The position numbers and the translations under genes are program-made. DNA of 32,236 nt. Origin: Oscillatoriales cyanobacterium PMM_0008 (GTDB lineage Bacteria; Cyanobacteriota; Cyanobacteriia; Cyanobacteriales; Aerosakkonemataceae). Position 1 is the first letter of the stretch. Every line of letters begins with the position of its first letter. Positions 25,651 to 32,236 of the stretch are shown piece by piece. The stretch is from positions 1 through 32,236 of the forward strand of contig CASBRD010000041.1 of the NCBI GenBank assembly GCA_949128025.1. The letters run 5' to 3'. Below the pieces are notes generated by a model. That model searched no databases and had not been told where the DNA came from. It saw only the letters and a list, made by a program, of their open reading frames with translations.

Positions 25651-25776
25651 TAATATCATGTCCTTACGCATCGGTTACCTAAAAAATTCGTGTAATTATT
25701 CTCATCTGCGTTCATCTGTCTTCATCTGCGGTAAAATTTCAACCAACGATAACAACAGACAATTTGACGATATCAC
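25651..25776 (+). repeat. Dispersed ~125-bp repeat, copy 3 of 3
   Basis: It begins TAATATCATGTCC and ends GACGATATCACT. It is nearly identical over its length to 2508-2637 and, in the second half, to 9709-9828. On the minus strand its edge supplies the stop codon of the Rhs module D fragment. Confidence 0.85.
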
Positions 25777-26702
25777 TCATGGGCATCTTGTAACTGTAAT
25801 CTCATCTGATTCAAGTCATTGCGTTTATCGTCATATGCTTCATCAGGTACAACTCTGACGCTAGTCTCACTATCTCTGTTCGTTTCTTCTAGAACGAGTA
25901 GGGCAACACCAGCACCCCCAATAATGACTGCCCATGCCCATGCTTTCGCAAGATCTATTGCTACGGGTGCTAGGTGACTTAGCACAGTGTAGCCACGCAC
26001 CACAAGTTGGTCGAATAGGTTAAGAATGCTGAAGGTTTCCGAAATGGTAGAGAGTCCGCTAGGATCAACTCCATTAACTGGATTGTCATTGGTGTAGATA
26101 TATTTGTGAAGTGTTAAAGGTTCAGAAATACTCCCCGCGTAACTATCCCTCCTAGTAAACCTCCCAGTATCACTATCATAATACCTAGCCCGCAAATAAT
26201 AATCACCCAACCCCCTATCGAACTGCTCCCCAGCAAACAAATAATTATTCTCAACATTATTAGTAGACCCAATTAAATTCCCAAAAGCATCATAACTATA
26301 CCTATCAACCACCACCCCACCAGCATCAGTCAACCCCCGCGTACTACCCAAACCATCCACCAAATAGAACGACTTCTCACTTCCCCTTTGCTGAGAAATC
26401 AAATCAATACCATAAACATAGCTAGCAGTCAACCCATTATTAACCCTCTCCTCCAAAACCTGAGCATAAGGAAGATTCTTATCCACCAAATACTCAGTCT
26501 TCACCCCATTAACAGTAGAACTCACCCTAATCCCATCACTATCATACTGATAAGAAATCACCTCGCCATTCGCCTTCCTGACCCCAACCAGACGATTTTC
26601 CTTATCCCAAGTCTAACCTACCTCCTCCACCCCATTCTTAATCTGAGACAGCAGATTCCCATTATCGTCATAGGGGTAAAGTCGAGCAAACTGGGGGACG
26701 AT
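25773..26702 (-). pseudogene. Rhs module D: degenerate orphan Rhs core fragment with truncated C-terminus
   Basis: The open Rhs frame can be followed from about 26702, first with VPQFARLYPYDDNGN, then the core with YD repeats up to DPSG near 26055. There is no start codon, and a TAG at 26615-26613 interrupts the frame where module B has TAT (EEVG-stop-TWDKEN). After the core, about 92 residues of unique sequence follow, with one hydrophobic helix (AWAWAVIIGGAGVALLVL) and a charged tail ending DAHE, stopping exactly at dispersed repeat copy 3. No immunity candidate follows. The core DNA is nearly identical to module B. It is probably a non-functional cassette remnant. Confidence 0.8.
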
Positions 26703-26746
26703 GTTTTACGCTGATGCTAACGCATTGTACAAGAGGGGCGAGCGCA

Positions 26747-27520
26747 CTAAATACTTGTTTTCTTTAGCATTAACTCAACTTCTTCAACAGAAGGAATATC
26801 ATCACATTCATAATAGCGAAAGTCTTCCCAATGTTCTCCCAGTTCTCCTGTATCAAGAGCATTATAGTTTAAGCCCAAAACCCAACCCGGACAAATTCCC
26901 AAAGCCCTTGCTAATGCCTCATGCCGAATCACTGGTGAAGGGTAACTTTCTACCTTCAGTAAAGCTGAATAACGAGATAAATCATTTGGAATTTCATCAC
27001 TGTTTCCATCAGGTTTACGGAGAATAATTTCTACTTGCTCAATTGCCGTTTTTCTTCCAAAAGTAGTACATAACTTCCTTGGCTCTCCACCTTTGATTTG
27101 GCACTTAAGAGGAAATTCATCAAAGACTTTTCCAGGTTGCCAATCATCATCTCCACAGGTTGTATACTCATCTAGCATTTCGCCATTTTGACAGAGATGA
27201 TACCAAAAAATACTGCCGTCATAAACATCGACTGCTAGAGCAGAACAGGAAAATTTTTCTGATAAGTGAACGGCTAAACAAACTAGAGCAAAATACGGCC
27301 CATAACGATATTGATTGATGATAGTTCTTGCTCTTGGCTCTAGCTTGACTAACTTTGCAACGTCTTCCCTATTCGGGCCACCTGCTGCTTTGTCGTATAC
27401 AATTGTGAATTCATTGATAGTTGGGGATACATAGGCATCTCGACCAACCTCAGATAGGTAGTTAATCAATTCTTTTTCATGTACTCCATGCAAAGTGATA
27501 TTTCCATATTGAATTCCCAT
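26747..27520 (-). CDS. Candidate immunity protein for Rhs module C
   Basis: 257 residues. The N-terminal half (MGIQYGNITLHGVHEKELINYL.., GRDAYVSPTINEFTIVYD.., CSALAVDVYDGSIFWYHLCQNGEMLDEYTTCGDDD) matches a pattern of small bacterial proteins I have seen annotated only as hypothetical. The C-terminal half (after about residue 150) is acidic and includes RHEALARALGICPGWVLGLNY. It lies on the same strand, about 105 bp after the end of the module C Rhs fragment, the place where immunity genes sit. Cytoplasmic: no signal or membrane segment. An immunity role is inferred from position. Confidence 0.6.
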   Translation of the reverse strand: MGIQYGNITLHGVHEKELINYLSEVGRDAYVSPTINEFTIVYDKAAGGPNREDVAKLVKLEPRARTIINQYRYGPYFALVCLAVHLSEKFSCSALAVDVYDGSIFWYHLCQNGEMLDEYTTCGDDDWQPGKVFDEFPLKCQIKGGEPRKLCTTFGRKTAIEQVEIILRKPDGNSDEIPNDLSRYSALLKVESYPSPVIRHEALARALGICPGWVLGLNYNALDTGELGEHWEDFRYYECDDIPSVEEVELMLKKTSI

Positions 27521-27625
27521 AATTTATGTGTATCTCCGTTGACTCGTGTTGAAGCTTTGCTACCCCCAGTTCAGATCGTCTCCTGCCGATCTTATTCGGG
27601 AAGACTGCTAAACGAACCTGCTATA

Positions 27626-28690
27626 TTAGGCTAGTCCAAGCGTCCTTTGCGCTCGCCCTGACGCATCTATCATTTGATATGTTAACCATGCTGTTAAGCT
27701 TAAGATTGTCGTTACTCCTAAAGCAGCCGCCCAAAGGTCTAAACGAGGGTCGTTAATTCGGTACACAATTATTCCAGGCTCAAGGTTCCAAACAACAGCA
27801 AACTTTCCATGTGTAATATTATTCACACTGTCTGGATAAACAACATTCATTCCCAAATTTTCCCTAACCCAGGCTAGAGGAATTATGGAAGGAGGAGTGT
27901 AATTTGTACCCAGATGCCAGTCAGCGAGTCCTAAACTGTGAAGTCCACTTACTGCACTTGTCAACTCTCTTCTTCCACTATCAATCTGAGCCTGTCTATC
28001 GGCAGGCTTAATTTCATAAAGTTCATGACTGGTAAAATCTACAAGATCTGGATACAATCGATTATTTAATCCCCTTATTCCCGGATGATTGGTATTACCC
28101 ATTGCTGTTCGGACTATTCTCCGAAATGTTGGTCTATTTCCGTTGGTAAAAGGTGTACGAGGATCGTAGGCACGCGCCCTACTAAACATCTCGTTGTTCA
28201 TAGGATTATTAGTTTCTGTTATTCCCACTTGCCTGATAAAATGTAGTCCAACTTTTGAGTGTACTATGTCTCCATCTGTTTGTGGAGTTTTTCCACTTGG
28301 GTCAACAAGGGTAACTGGATTGTCGTTAGCGTAAAGATACTTATGTAGCGTAACAGGCTCTTCTAACCTTCCCTCAAAACTATCCCTCTTAGTAAACCGC
28401 CCAATACTTTCGTCATAATACCTAGCCCTCAAATAATAATCACCCAACCCCCGATCGAACTGTTCCCCAGCAAACAAATAATTATTCTCAGTACTCCCCG
28501 CCGACCCAATTAAATTCCCAAACGCATCATAACTATACCGATCGGTCACCACCCCACTAGCATTAGTCAACCCCCGCGTACTACCCAATCCATCCACCAA
28601 ATAGAACGACTTCTCACTCCCCCTCTGCTGAGAAATCAAATCATTACCATAAACATAACTAGCAACCGAACTATCATTAGTCCGCGTCTC
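27626..28690 (-). CDS. Rhs module C: orphan Rhs core fragment with PD-(D/E)XK-like C-terminal toxin candidate
   Basis: The frame opens after a stop at 28693-28691 and has no convincing start (first candidates are TTG inside the core). It encodes SVASYVYGNDLISQQRG, the Rhs core (YLVDGLGSTRGLTNASG, FAGEQFDRGLGDYYLRARYYD) to the junction VDPSG near 28292, then 221 unique residues. In these, RLYPDLVDFTSHELYEIKP resembles a PD-(D/E)XK nuclease core (PD..E.K), and a late hydrophobic stretch (LWAAALGVTTILSLTAWLTY) follows. Related cassettes act after fusion to a full Rhs gene. Nuclease activity is inference; the cassette structure is seen directly. Confidence 0.7.
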   Translation of the reverse strand, partial: ETRTNDSSVASYVYGNDLISQQRGSEKSFYLVDGLGSTRGLTNASGVVTDRYSYDAFGNLIGSAGSTENNYLFAGEQFDRGLGDYYLRARYYDESIGRFTKRDSFEGRLEEPVTLHKYLYANDNPVTLVDPSGKTPQTDGDIVHSKVGLHFIRQVGITETNNPMNNEMFSRARAYDPRTPFTNGNRPTFRRIVRTAMGNTNHPGIRGLNNRLYPDLVDFTSHELYEIKPADRQAQIDSGRRELTSAVSGLHSLGLADWHLGTNYTPPSIIPLAWVRENLGMNVVYPDSVNNITHGKFAVVWNLEPGIIVYRINDPRLDLWAAALGVTTILSLTAWLTYQMIDASGRAQRTLGLA

Positions 28691-28747
28691 CTAATTTATA
28701 GCTATGATGGGGATATGTGCTCCCTGAAGAGTTAGGATATAAATTAA

Positions 28748-29359
28748 ATGGCTCATTTCACAACTTTAGTTCTTTTACCTCCAGACACAACTGATGTTGA
28801 AAAAAAAGTAATAGATCTGCTCATTCCTTACTACTCTGAACTAAAAGTGGAACCATATAAAGAGTATTTAAATCGAGCGGAAGTTGAAAAAGAAGTGGAA
28901 TATCTGTCCACTCTTTCAAGAGAAAACCTGGAAGAATTAGCAGCAGACTATGAAGTTTCAAGTGATGACCTGGAAAGTTTAGCCAAGCTCAACTTAGATT
29001 GGGACGACAACGAAGTAGCAGGTATTGACAAACATGGTTCCTACCGAATGACAACTATTAATTCTCAAGGAAAATGGGATTGTTACACCTTTATTGAAGC
29101 AGAAACCAGTGAATCGGGAACACTTATTCACTATCCGTGTCGTGTGACAGATCTGCCTGATATAGTTCCTTATGCTTTTGTAACCCCTGATGGTCAGTGG
29201 CATGACGCGGATGCAGAACTAGGTGTACAGGTTTTCGAGAAAATTCACTTGCAACGTGATGTCCACATTAGTGAAGAAGCAAACTGGATTCTGAAAGTTC
29301 AGGAAATTATTGCTCGGTATCCAGATCATCTTGCTGTTGTTTTAAATTGTCATATATAG
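28748..29359 (+). CDS. Unknown acidic protein inserted in opposite orientation within the Rhs array
   Basis: 203 residues from ATG 28748; an AGG lies about 12 bases upstream, weak as a ribosome site. It starts MAHFTTLVLLPPDTTDVEKK, then VEPYKEYLNRAEVEKEVEYL, SYRMTTINSQGKWDCYTF, YAFVTPDGQWHDADAELGV. This order resembles a phage/plasmid-associated family with MxHFTVLV starts and a PKSKWDWY segment, of unknown function. No membrane segment or signal is seen. It sits between modules B and C, facing against them; it could be an immunity or accessory gene that was inverted or inserted. No partner is evident. Confidence 0.65.
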   Translation: MAHFTTLVLLPPDTTDVEKKVIDLLIPYYSELKVEPYKEYLNRAEVEKEVEYLSTLSRENLEELAADYEVSSDDLESLAKLNLDWDDNEVAGIDKHGSYRMTTINSQGKWDCYTFIEAETSESGTLIHYPCRVTDLPDIVPYAFVTPDGQWHDADAELGVQVFEKIHLQRDVHISEEANWILKVQEIIARYPDHLAVVLNCHI

Positions 29360-29439
29360 TAAGGCAAGGAAGGATAGAATTGATGTAAATAGCAGGCATC
29401 GCTAAATACAAAGATGAAAATCATGGGACTTAATTCACA

Positions 29440-29817
29440 CTATGCCCAACCATATCTTGCTGTAACAGCCGCTGTCGCCAAAGCTGTAGCTAAAAGAATA
29501 GTAGTTTGCTGTATATAGTCCTGATTTATAGCTACAGGTGAAAACTGAAATGTTGGAGAAGGTATTGGGTCAGGGTCTGCACCCTCCCTCCACCTTGTGA
29601 GTTGGCTTCTACGCTTACTGGCTCCTAAAACGGCAAGAGCAATGATTGCTTCATAAAGATGCGTTCTCTTGGTATAGAAAAGCACGCCGCCATCATTGAA
29701 ATAAATGAAAGGTGTACCATCCACAATTTTCAAACTTCCGATATCTGGTATCGCTTTCCAAGTAGTATTCGGCTGCTGTCCCAAATATAGATAGCTCTTG
29801 AGGATCTTCAGATGCAA
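29440..29817 (-). pseudogene. Rhs module B C-terminal sequence in a shifted frame
   Basis: This 125-residue open frame overlaps the 3' end of the module B core frame. Its first possible start is a TTG within the core junction. It reads DIGSLKIVDGTPFIYFNDGG, FYTKRTHLYEAIIALAVLG, WREGADPDPIPSP, and ends in a hydrophobic stretch (TTILLATALATAAVTARYGWA), which looks more protein-like than the short tail in the core frame. I infer that a one-base indel near 29700-29815 separated the C-terminal domain from the core. Alternatively it is a chance frame. Confidence 0.45.
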
Positions 29818-31096
29818 ATCCTTTTGGATCTATATAGTTAACTGGATTAGCATTGCCATAAAGATACTTATGCTGCGTAACTGGCTCACCGAGCCTTCCC
29901 TCATAACTATCCCTCCTAGTAAACCGCCCCGTATCCGTATCATAATACCTCGCCCTCAAATAATAATCACCCAACCCCCTATCAAACTGTTCCCCAGCAA
30001 ACAAATAATTATTATCCGTCCCCCCAGAAACCCCAATTAAATTCCCAAACGCATCATAACTATACCTATCGGTCACCACCCCACCAGCATCAGTCAACCC
30101 CCGCGTACTACCCAAACCATCCACCAAATAAAACGACTTCTCACTCCCCCGTTGTTGAGAAATCAAATCATTACCATAAACATAACTAGCAGTCAACCCA
30201 TTATTAACCCGTTCCTCCAAAACCTGAGCATAAGGAAGATTCTTATCCACCAAATACTCAGTCTTCACCCCATTAACAGTAGAACTCACCCTAATCCCAT
30301 CACTATCATACCGATAAGAAATCACCTCACCATTCGCCTTCCTTACCCCAATCAGACGATTTTCCTTATCCCAAGTATAACCTACCTCCTCCACCCCATT
30401 CTTAATCCGAGACAGCAAATTCCCATTCTTATCATAACGATACTCGATCGTGTGAACAACTACATTATTCTTCTTCAACTCCTCCCGCAACAAACGGTCA
30501 TTGTTATCATAAAAATAAGTAGTAATCCCCTCAACCGAATCATTCTTACTCAGGCGATTCCCTACTTTATCATAGCCATACTCAATCATCCGATTCCCAG
30601 CAGAAGTATCAGTAATCGTCTCCTTTGTCAACCGATACAAACCATCATACTCATACTCAACCTTCCTTCCACCCTGTTCCTGAACAACCCGGCGATGACC
30701 CACCAAATCCAAGGAATAATCAAAACTAAAAATTACCACCCCATCTTTGGTATCCTTCACCAACTTCAACCGATTCAACTCATCATAATCCCGACTTTCC
30801 ACCACCCCATTAGGCAATTCAGTTCTTACCAAATTTCCCACAACATCATAGAAATAACTCGTAATTCCTTCAGAACTCGTTACCGTTTTCAACCGATTTT
30901 GTTCATCATAACTATAAGAAACACTCCCACTCGGACTCCTCACAGATGTGCGATTACCCGCCACATCATACCCGTACTCAATCGTATTACCACTTGCTAA
31001 ATAAACCCCATTCGGGTCAGTCCGAGAAATCAACCTGTGACGTTCATCGTATTTAAAAGTAGTAGTTCCGCAAGCATTGTACTCGTAGTTAGTTAC
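29693..31096 (-). pseudogene. Rhs module B: orphan Rhs repeat/core fragment
   Basis: It begins about 20 bp after the stop of immunity A, reading VTNYEYNACGTTTFKYDERH with no start codon. About ten YD/Rhs repeats (YxYDxxGNRxxx and LxRIKNGVEEVGYTWDKENR types) follow, then the core YLVDGLGSTRGLTDAGGVVT and the junction YIDPKG near 29819. In this frame only about 42 further residues follow before a stop; a longer C-terminal sequence continues in another frame. It is the longest Rhs piece in the window and serves as reference for the degenerate module D. Without a start it should be silent unless recombined. Confidence 0.75.
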
Positions 31097-31115
31097 CGTA
31101 CAAAGCAGAAGACAT

Positions 31116-31382
31116 TCATTGAAAAGGAGCAGCGATTTGTCTTAACTGTTCTTCCCATACCCAATTTTTCGGTTTAGACTTTGGTTCAAACCATTTAGCT
31201 CCTTGGTTCAGCCATCTCTCGCGAGACTTCTTTATTGCTTGGATCGTAGCGTCATGATATCCAAATTCAGTACCACAACAATCACAAATATTAAATGATG
31301 GTGTATATCCGTTTTCTCCCCACGGAAGATCATCCTGTTGGAGTCCACAAACGCGACATATGTAAAGTTCTTTACTGAGCAT
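31116..31382 (-). CDS. Candidate immunity protein for Rhs module A (zinc-ribbon type)
   Basis: 88 residues from ATG 31382, which lies inside the last codons of the Rhs gene (11-base overlap), a typical arrangement for a translationally coupled toxin/immunity pair. Two Cys pairs, CRVC (residues 9-12) and CDCC (33-36), suggest a zinc ribbon; the rest has WGENGYTPSFNI, GTEFGYHD, and GAKWFEPKSKPKNW. Proteins of this kind are frequent downstream of polymorphic toxins; I assign immunity by family pattern and position. A longer frame upstream (to 31472) overlaps the toxin and is not used. Confidence 0.75.
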   Translation of the reverse strand: MLSKELYICRVCGLQQDDLPWGENGYTPSFNICDCCGTEFGYHDATIQAIKKSRERWLNQGAKWFEPKSKPKNWVWEEQLRQIAAPFQ

Positions 31383-32236
31383 TGAAATAATCAAGGTTTG
31401 TAGGGTAGCCGTGAATTGATGGATCTGGCTTATACACCGTTCTGGGAGTGCCACTGCTAGTAGCGACACCAAACAAGTCCGAAGCTGGATCGTAGATTAC
31501 GATATCACCATTCGGTCGAGTTTTCACAAGTGCAGTGCTGGGAGGATTTTTGACAAAATCATCAGCAAAATCGACAAATTTTTTGGCGTTGGGTATGTTG
31601 GGAAAGTCAGCACTATGTTTTTTCCAATGCTTATATGCGTTTTGAACAGCCGTGATTTTACCCGATGACCAAATTGCTCCTACTAAAAAAGGAGTAACTT
31701 GCACGAAAGTTGAGGCGGCATTTGCAACATCAAAAATATCTGCTATCCCTTGAAACTGAGGTACAGAATGAAGGAAATCTGAGAGGAAGTTGACGTACAT
31801 TTCCGTCAACGTTTCTCGAATTGAGTTGGCAGCTGAAACTTCAGTTATCGTAAATAGCCCAGTCGGATCAATAAAATTCGCTGGATTGTTATTGGCGTAG
31901 AAATACTTGTGTAAAGTTATAGGCTCAAGAATCTTGCCCTCATAACTATCCCTGCTAGTAAACCGCCCCGTTTGTTGGTCATAATACCTCGATCGCAAAT
32001 AATAATCACCCAACCCTCTATCAAACTGTTCCCCAGCAAACAAATAATTATTCTCAGTACTCCCCGCCGACCCAATTAAATTCCCAAACGCATCATAACT
32101 ATACCTATCAGTCACCACCCCACTACCATTCGTCAACCCCCGCGTACTACCCAAACCATCCACCAAATAAAACGACTTCTCACCCCCCCTCTGCATCAAA
32201 ATCAAATCATTACCATAAACATAACCAGCAGTCAAC
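31372..32236 (-). CDS. Rhs module A: C-terminal part of an Rhs/YD-repeat protein with RNase-like toxin domain (5' end outside window)
   Basis: The frame is open to the right edge, so the gene starts beyond the window. The visible part holds the Rhs core (YVYGNDLILMQRG, YLVDGLGSTRGLTNGSG, LFAGEQFDRGLGDYYLRSRYYD) to the junction FIDPTG near 31858, followed by about 160 unique residues. Its end, YKHWKKHSADFP, KTRPNGDIVIYDPASDLFGV, RTVYKPDPSIHGY and NLDYFNAQ, resembles BECR-fold/CdiA-type RNase C-termini (YDP..FGV..RT..KPD pattern); this assignment is tentative. The Rhs shell encloses and releases the toxin between competing cells. An immunity gene overlaps its stop. Confidence 0.8.
   Translation of the reverse strand, partial: LTAGYVYGNDLILMQRGGEKSFYLVDGLGSTRGLTNGSGVVTDRYSYDAFGNLIGSAGSTENNYLFAGEQFDRGLGDYYLRSRYYDQQTGRFTSRDSYEGKILEPITLHKYFYANNNPANFIDPTGLFTITEVSAANSIRETLTEMYVNFLSDFLHSVPQFQGIADIFDVANAASTFVQVTPFLVGAIWSSGKITAVQNAYKHWKKHSADFPNIPNAKKFVDFADDFVKNPPSTALVKTRPNGDIVIYDPASDLFGVATSSGTPRTVYKPDPSIHGYPTNLDYFNAQ

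Follow-up and report, generated by a model that had tools for sequence, protein, structure and literature searches.

A probable orphan Rhs toxin/immunity array in a relative of Argonema antarcticum, with a likely immunity gene facing a deleted toxin

The contig CASBRD010000041.1 of Oscillatoriales cyanobacterium PMM_0008, a relative of Argonema antarcticum, was analysed over its entire length of 32,236 bases (the window), and carries at its right-hand end four Rhs cores in series on the minus strand, each followed by an unrelated C-terminus (CT). The locus is very probably an orphan Rhs-CT/immunity array, consisting of 3' ends of a giant Rhs effector gene that were displaced one after another. 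We base this reading on the serial cores, their DPxG junctions, the unrelated CTs, the lack of ordinary start codons, and the occurrence of the same cassette types on full-length genes elsewhere. Arrays of this kind are already known. What appears from sequence comparison to be new is a convergent, likely immunity gene, which is kept in four loci and which in the window persists beside a deleted toxin.

The modules are named A, B, C and D along the direction of transcription. The source draft comprises 5.83 Mb in 469 contigs and is 98.75% complete. Relatives were sought in 261 other genomes of the order, in 348 genomes of the class (by profile search), and in a collection of plasmid records. 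Genome G002, which the placement tool assigns to the genus of the window organism, is A. antarcticum A004/B2 (three stretches 100% identical over 10-16 kb).

Rhs cores and their junctions

All four cores score well above the cut-off of the TIGR03696 model Rhs_assc_core (58-69 bits, compared with 32.5), and their DNA is pairwise 81.8-88.8% identical over 350-599 bp, which is far beyond chance. The identity among them drops at DPTG (A), DPKG (B), DPSG (C) and DPSG (D), and the four CTs do not match one another at E ≤ 1e-3. A preliminary description of this DNA, made from the sequence alone, had reported four cores in series on one strand, each ending at a D-P-x-G junction before an unrelated CT, and had proposed aligning the cores at DNA level; scores, alignment and junctions all agree with it.

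The cores differ in length, being about 1.25 kb in B, 600 bp in D and 350 bp in C, while A is cut off by the end of the contig. In the stretch before the core motif, C and D lack an in-frame ATG and B has a single one, at 30589, which lies within the YD repeats, with none ahead of the repeats; the other candidate start codons are all TTG or GTG. The start of A is not judgeable, as the module reaches the contig end at 32236. The earlier count of at least three start-less modules is therefore correct.

The same description had inferred at least two lineages of core, from a variable segment that reads GSAGSTENN in A and C and DAGGVV in B and D. The segments are as described, but a division into these two lineages is not supported: over 350 bp, the informative sites that split the cores two against two are divided 6, 5 and 4 between AC/BD, AD/BC and AB/CD, and the closest relative of core B is a core from A. 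antarcticum (91.9% identity, against at most 87.7% to the other cores of the window). The number of sites is too small to decide between a mosaic and star-like descent.

Orphan rhs-CT/rhsI and cdiA-CT/cdiI modules, in which core fragments are accompanied by functional immunity genes, have been described in enterobacteria (PMC3150448), and there is precedent for recombination between a main gene and orphan modules (PMC3967940). As far as the accessible text of these two papers goes, the window modules resemble them in their varying core length, in the position of the CT after DPxG(L), in the usual absence of a start, in the linked immunity genes, and in having relatives fused to full-length genes elsewhere. 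They differ in the cyanobacterial host, in that a main gene is not seen, and in module B, where the toxin is deleted and the likely immunity gene lies on the opposite strand. A literature search found no report of orphan Rhs arrays in cyanobacteria, which is a weak negative, most subscription papers being outside its reach.

Module B and its convergent gene

The core of module B occupies 29818-31077 on the minus strand, and is followed by a remnant of a CT at 29440-29817, which is out of the core's frame. The core frame ends 41 codons past DPKG. Read in a different frame, 29443-29817 gives a stretch of 125 residues that is related to YD-repeat gene tips, with 50% identity to the tips in four records of Leptolyngbya boryana, and 64% identity over 71% of the query to the tip in Calothrix NIES-4105. 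Intact B-type tips in relatives are 203-206 residues long, and those of Calothrix and L. boryana contain CPDILNY..YME(I/V)K, which by eye is a PD-(D/E)xK-like motif. Compared with a two-sequence profile, the window sequence matches positions 1-42 and, in a second frame, 103-226; by blastx, the Calothrix stretch is matched at residues 5-40 and 114-220. We conclude from the split matches in two frames that the internal segment bearing the motif was lost and that the frame was broken. It is unlikely that an assembly error produced this. The B toxin therefore seems to have lost both its reading frame and what was probably its catalytic segment. Its description as an exchangeable toxin cassette needs changing: in its present state B cannot donate a toxin, and the term immunity reservoir suits it better than toxin reservoir.

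Facing the remnant on the plus strand is a gene of 203 codons (28748-29359), which is uninterrupted and ends 80 bp from the end of the B tip. Two candidate immunity genes had been noted previously in the array; both are present, and this convergent gene brings the count to three. All five records in the plasmid collection that have a B-type tip also carry a convergent relative of the 203-aa protein (54-58% identity), four of them being strains of L. boryana, and no further plasmid record has a relative of the protein at E ≤ 0.01. In the profile search, B-type tips were found in three of the 348 genomes of the class, namely the window's own, G439 and G501. The 7,064-residue frame in G439 equals that of L. 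boryana. G501 belongs to the same genus as G439, and there the B-type tip is an orphan and faces a gene for a relative of the 203-aa protein (52% identity). The convergent pair is thus present in all four independent loci (window, L. boryana, Calothrix and G501), from at least three genera, with gaps of 69-80 bp, and the 203-aa protein is 52-58% identical over almost its full length to its relatives in other genera.

A mechanical survey of neighbouring genes was made for 24 modules in 10 stretches, taking the longest candidate gene; many of these modules are related to one another. Within 130 bp, the candidate was on the same strand for 15 modules and convergent for 3, all of these 3 being B-type. 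Four more modules had a candidate at 212-223 bp, convergent in three, including window D, where the candidate belongs to the ordinary genes of the left flank. The survey gave no candidate for window A and B, whose neighbours, placed by hand, are same-strand (overlapping) and convergent respectively.

The 203-aa gene might instead be an unrelated passenger that happens to lie next to B. It is on the opposite strand, contrary to the toxin-then-immunity order that the accessible text of the survey in PMC3482391 calls pervasive, and the protein has three matches away from Rhs genes in the 261 genomes of the order: one in G051 (34% identity over 155 of 203 residues) and short ones in G228 and G002. 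These matches weigh against an exclusive pairing with B. On the other hand, a passenger would hardly be expected to adjoin B-type tips at so constant a distance in every one of the four loci, or to be present with its partner in all five plasmid records that have either one, and in G501 the tip and the gene form a single block that is inverted relative to L. boryana. We consider a passenger somewhat unlikely, and the 203-aa gene is the likely immunity gene of B. On balance, we favour the idea that toxin and immunity gene form one unit in the B-type cassette, in which the immunity gene is tail-to-tail with the toxin, is transcribed by itself, and moves with the toxin as a block; in the window the toxin would have been lost and the immunity gene kept. 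Being convergent with B, the gene should need a promoter of its own, and in that case protection would not depend on the toxin transcript and could outlast the toxin.

In the parts of PMC3482391 that are accessible, polymorphic toxin systems have modular tips, REase (restriction endonuclease)-type toxins are among the toxin classes, and strings of immunity genes are regarded as leftovers of replaced tips; the window array is similar in its modular tips and in its probable leftover immunity genes, and its C-CT and the B-type tips may be of REase type. The tail-to-tail arrangement of the B-type pair differs from the order reported there. According to the accessible methods of that survey, same-strand genes were counted as operons and head-to-head pairs were examined, and a tail-to-tail partner could therefore have escaped it. 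Our literature search found no report of convergent immunity genes in polymorphic toxin systems, again a weak result with most subscription papers out of reach; the passages on orientation in PMC9635880, PMC10210955, PMC9637101, PMC11481896, PMC12136450, PMC4028081 and PMC11278526 do not concern convergent immunity genes.

Modules A, C and D

Module A (31372-32236, minus strand) consists of a piece of core, truncated where the contig ends, and an intact CT (31375-31857), which matches PDB entry 8ey4_A with E 5e-23. Relatives of the A-CT are found in 34 plasmid records (E ≤ 1e-5), and among the best 25 of the 34 those that are annotated are the tips of CdiA/hemagglutinin-repeat genes; most of the E. 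coli matches listed have no annotation. The A-CT is thus predicted to be a CdiA-type toxin of the 8ey4 family, which resembles the CdiA-CT of that fold in having an adjacent immunity gene, and differs from it in being carried by an Rhs core rather than by CdiA. The immunity gene encodes 88 amino acids (31116-31382, minus strand) and overlaps the stop codon of A. Relatives of the 88-aa protein are found in 23 plasmid records. In all five records common to both listings, the two relatives are adjacent and on the same strand. The toxin-then-immunity order is seen in an E. coli plasmid, and a Salmonella plasmid has an Rhs gene with a relative of the 88-aa gene behind it. On this evidence, the prediction that the two form a toxin/immunity pair is firm.

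In module C (27626-28690, minus strand) the core begins at about 28664, and the CT of 221 residues (27629-28291) is intact, with a D..ExK-like stretch seen by eye. The signal for Tox-REase-9 is weak and below the cut-off (E 0.19, 0.21 and 0.0012, of which the first is for the C-CT and the last for its relative in G501). The C-CT may be a divergent PD-(D/E)xK domain. It is 29% identical over 213-214 residues to C-type tips of G501 (E 1e-12 to 3e-14), and 28% identical over 144 residues to the L. boryana orphan NIES2135_66310, which is its best match among 333 frames (E 4e-4). C is followed on the minus strand by a gene of 257 codons (26747-27520). The best match of its protein among the same 333 frames is a remote one, to NIES2135_66300 (E 0.002), which lies directly downstream of NIES2135_66310, and none of 200 shuffles equalled the score of either match.

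The 257-aa gene is tentatively regarded as the immunity gene of C. The assignment is tentative because relatives of the protein, found in 8 of the 261 genomes, include two whole genes (58-60% identity) with no Rhs gene nearby, which share a neighbourhood with a gene that by eye is purH-like, and because the gene that follows the C-type module in G501 is unrelated to the 257-aa protein; both observations weigh against it. Lone genes of this family lie at L158 4802-5641 and L159 5274-6011, and in the window's genome the family occurs only in the Rhs array. The downstream, same-strand immunity order holds for A, would hold for C if the tentative 257-aa assignment is right, and does not hold for B.

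Module D (25773-26672, minus strand) has a degraded core, with an in-frame TAG just upstream of the open frame, and a CT of 93 residues, with no recognisable toxin. The 93-aa CT has no relatives in the 261 genomes or in the plasmid collection, and no same-strand gene follows within 260 bp of the module. D is rejected as a working cassette and, on these grounds together with the stop in its core, is most likely a remnant.

No useful match came from PDB searches with the B-type profile, the C-CT, the A immunity protein, or the 257-aa and 203-aa proteins, and single-sequence structure models were too poor for use (mean pLDDT of 41 for the 203-aa protein and 34 for the C-CT). Pfam matches under the cut-off, among them SAD_SRA, PafC and FAM216B, were set aside. 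There was no match in Rfam and tRNA scans of the window, in PADLOC with four proteins, or in tblastn of the window CTs and their neighbouring genes against an early set of comparison loci (E ≤ 0.01). Outside the array, the window aligns with A. antarcticum stretches L123, L124, L126, L157 and L194 only in one short repeat. A short intergenic repeat occurs twice in the window, at 2509-2616 and at 25653-25778, where it flanks the end of the array, and a third time, about 81% identical, on A. antarcticum contig C174 (L126 1232-1366).

Cassette exchange and persistence of the array

The preliminary description had suggested looking for the orphan CTs fused to main genes in related strains, and the B and C cassette types are indeed found at the end of full-length genes in relatives. 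B-type tips end YD genes of 7,046 residues in L. boryana (plasmid2) and 7,546 residues in Calothrix, and a C-type tip lies at the 3' end of the main gene of G501, with a frame break in the core; A-type CTs are borne by CdiA genes, as noted above. On L. boryana plasmid2, the main gene is followed by the convergent gene and then by four further YD modules with their neighbours, as well as by an integrase-family gene, a PpiC-type gene, and an ABC transporter gene with C39 and cNMP domains. The G501 locus matches this one, with 76% identity over 4.1 kb in the main gene and 81% over 5.0 kb in the downstream part. In L. boryana, the B-type tip ends the main gene and the C-type is an orphan, whereas in G501 the C-type is at the main-gene end and the B-type pair is an orphan, as an inverted block of 1.6 kb (core end, tip and convergent gene; 75% identity) beside an integrase-like gene. 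In an all-against-all comparison, two more A. antarcticum tips recur in L. boryana (60% over 222 residues and 31% over 123 residues), giving four CT families common to arrays of different genera.

Some further features of the related loci were observed. A. antarcticum (L123, L157, L126) has larger rows of Rhs modules, with five on a 17-kb contig and three on another stretch, and one of its tips has, by eye, an apparent Hint-type segment ahead of an HNH-like end. The giant YD proteins have Ig-like domains in their N-terminal parts. An ABC transporter gene lies near the YD arrays of L. boryana, Calothrix and G501 (L170 40017-42959, L171 15036-17993 and L193 9769-12783). The two that were scanned, in L170 and L171, have C39 peptidase and cNMP-binding domains, and the one in L193 is within a stretch 81% identical to L170. 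The transporter may be a type I-like export route.

On the preferred reading, new toxin/immunity cassettes recombined into the tip of the main gene via the shared core, displacing the older ends one by one. The orphans would then be silent as toxins, while expression of their immunity genes may give protection from relatives with the corresponding toxin. A crossover in the core could also return C, which is intact, to a main gene, and likewise A, should it prove to be an orphan.

Several results weigh against this reading. Relatives of the A-CT and the B remnant, like those of the D-CT, were absent from the 261 other genomes of the order, and the C-CT has no close relatives there; a weak match in G252 was dropped, as it lies within a gene of 1,112 codons without Rhs features, which we take to encode a phycobilisome linker. 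In addition, the main gene with a reservoir of cassettes that had been proposed earlier stands only in its second part, as an array of orphan CTs and immunity genes: no full-length main Rhs gene was found in the draft. The B protein matches nothing in its own genome except the four window cores, the Pfam RHS repeat is above cut-off in this contig alone (best elsewhere, E 0.73), and the last 127 bases of the contig have strong matches only to the four cores (next, E 0.35). An N-terminal stretch of 2,431 residues from a full-length Rhs gene in genome G007 matches large genes on contigs C90, C98, C331 and C406 over about 300 residues that include DUF4114, and has two short matches on C104; a Pfam scan of the draft found no Rhs repeat on any of the five. 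Contig C331 (L181 2-11392) is open over 3,797 codons, almost its entire length, without Rhs repeats, and the frame resembles the N-terminal part of the G007 gene around DUF4114. The main gene either lies in a gap in the draft or is truly absent, and a gap is the simpler reading, because the contig break falls in a repeat.

It might also be proposed that the array is mere decay, that is, debris from old Rhs genes that have become pseudogenes and have no selected function, immunity genes included. B and D are indeed broken, the cores have no ordinary starts, and promoter-like sites in the array show no excess over chance (14, compared with 15.6 in shuffles), a further point against a maintained array; terminator-like sites show none either (3, compared with 5.2). 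Debris would not be expected to leave the A-CT, the 88-aa gene, the C-CT, and the 257-aa and 203-aa genes all open over their full length, nor to leave the 203-aa protein so similar to its relatives in other genera, and decay is accordingly an unlikely explanation. That the four-core order is an assembly artefact is very improbable, even with a contig that breaks within a core and a draft of 469 contigs: false joins are unlikely, given unique spacers and core copies that diverge at 11-18% of sites, a main gene with four YD modules is present in a plasmid record titled complete, and A. antarcticum contigs carry rows of modules.

We therefore return to the orphan array as the preferred explanation. 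It places an orphan Rhs array in cyanobacteria, with the sharing of cassettes between genera visible in sequence, and with B- and C-type tips whose places, at the end of the main gene or as an orphan, are exchanged between two Leptolyngbya-group genomes at the same locus. There may also be a blind spot: a cognate immunity gene that lies on the opposite strand could outlive the toxin if it is independent of the toxin transcript. If this is true, searches restricted to same-strand partners would tend to miss tail-to-tail immunity genes. Whether orphan arrays persist for their toxins or for their immunity genes becomes testable on module B.

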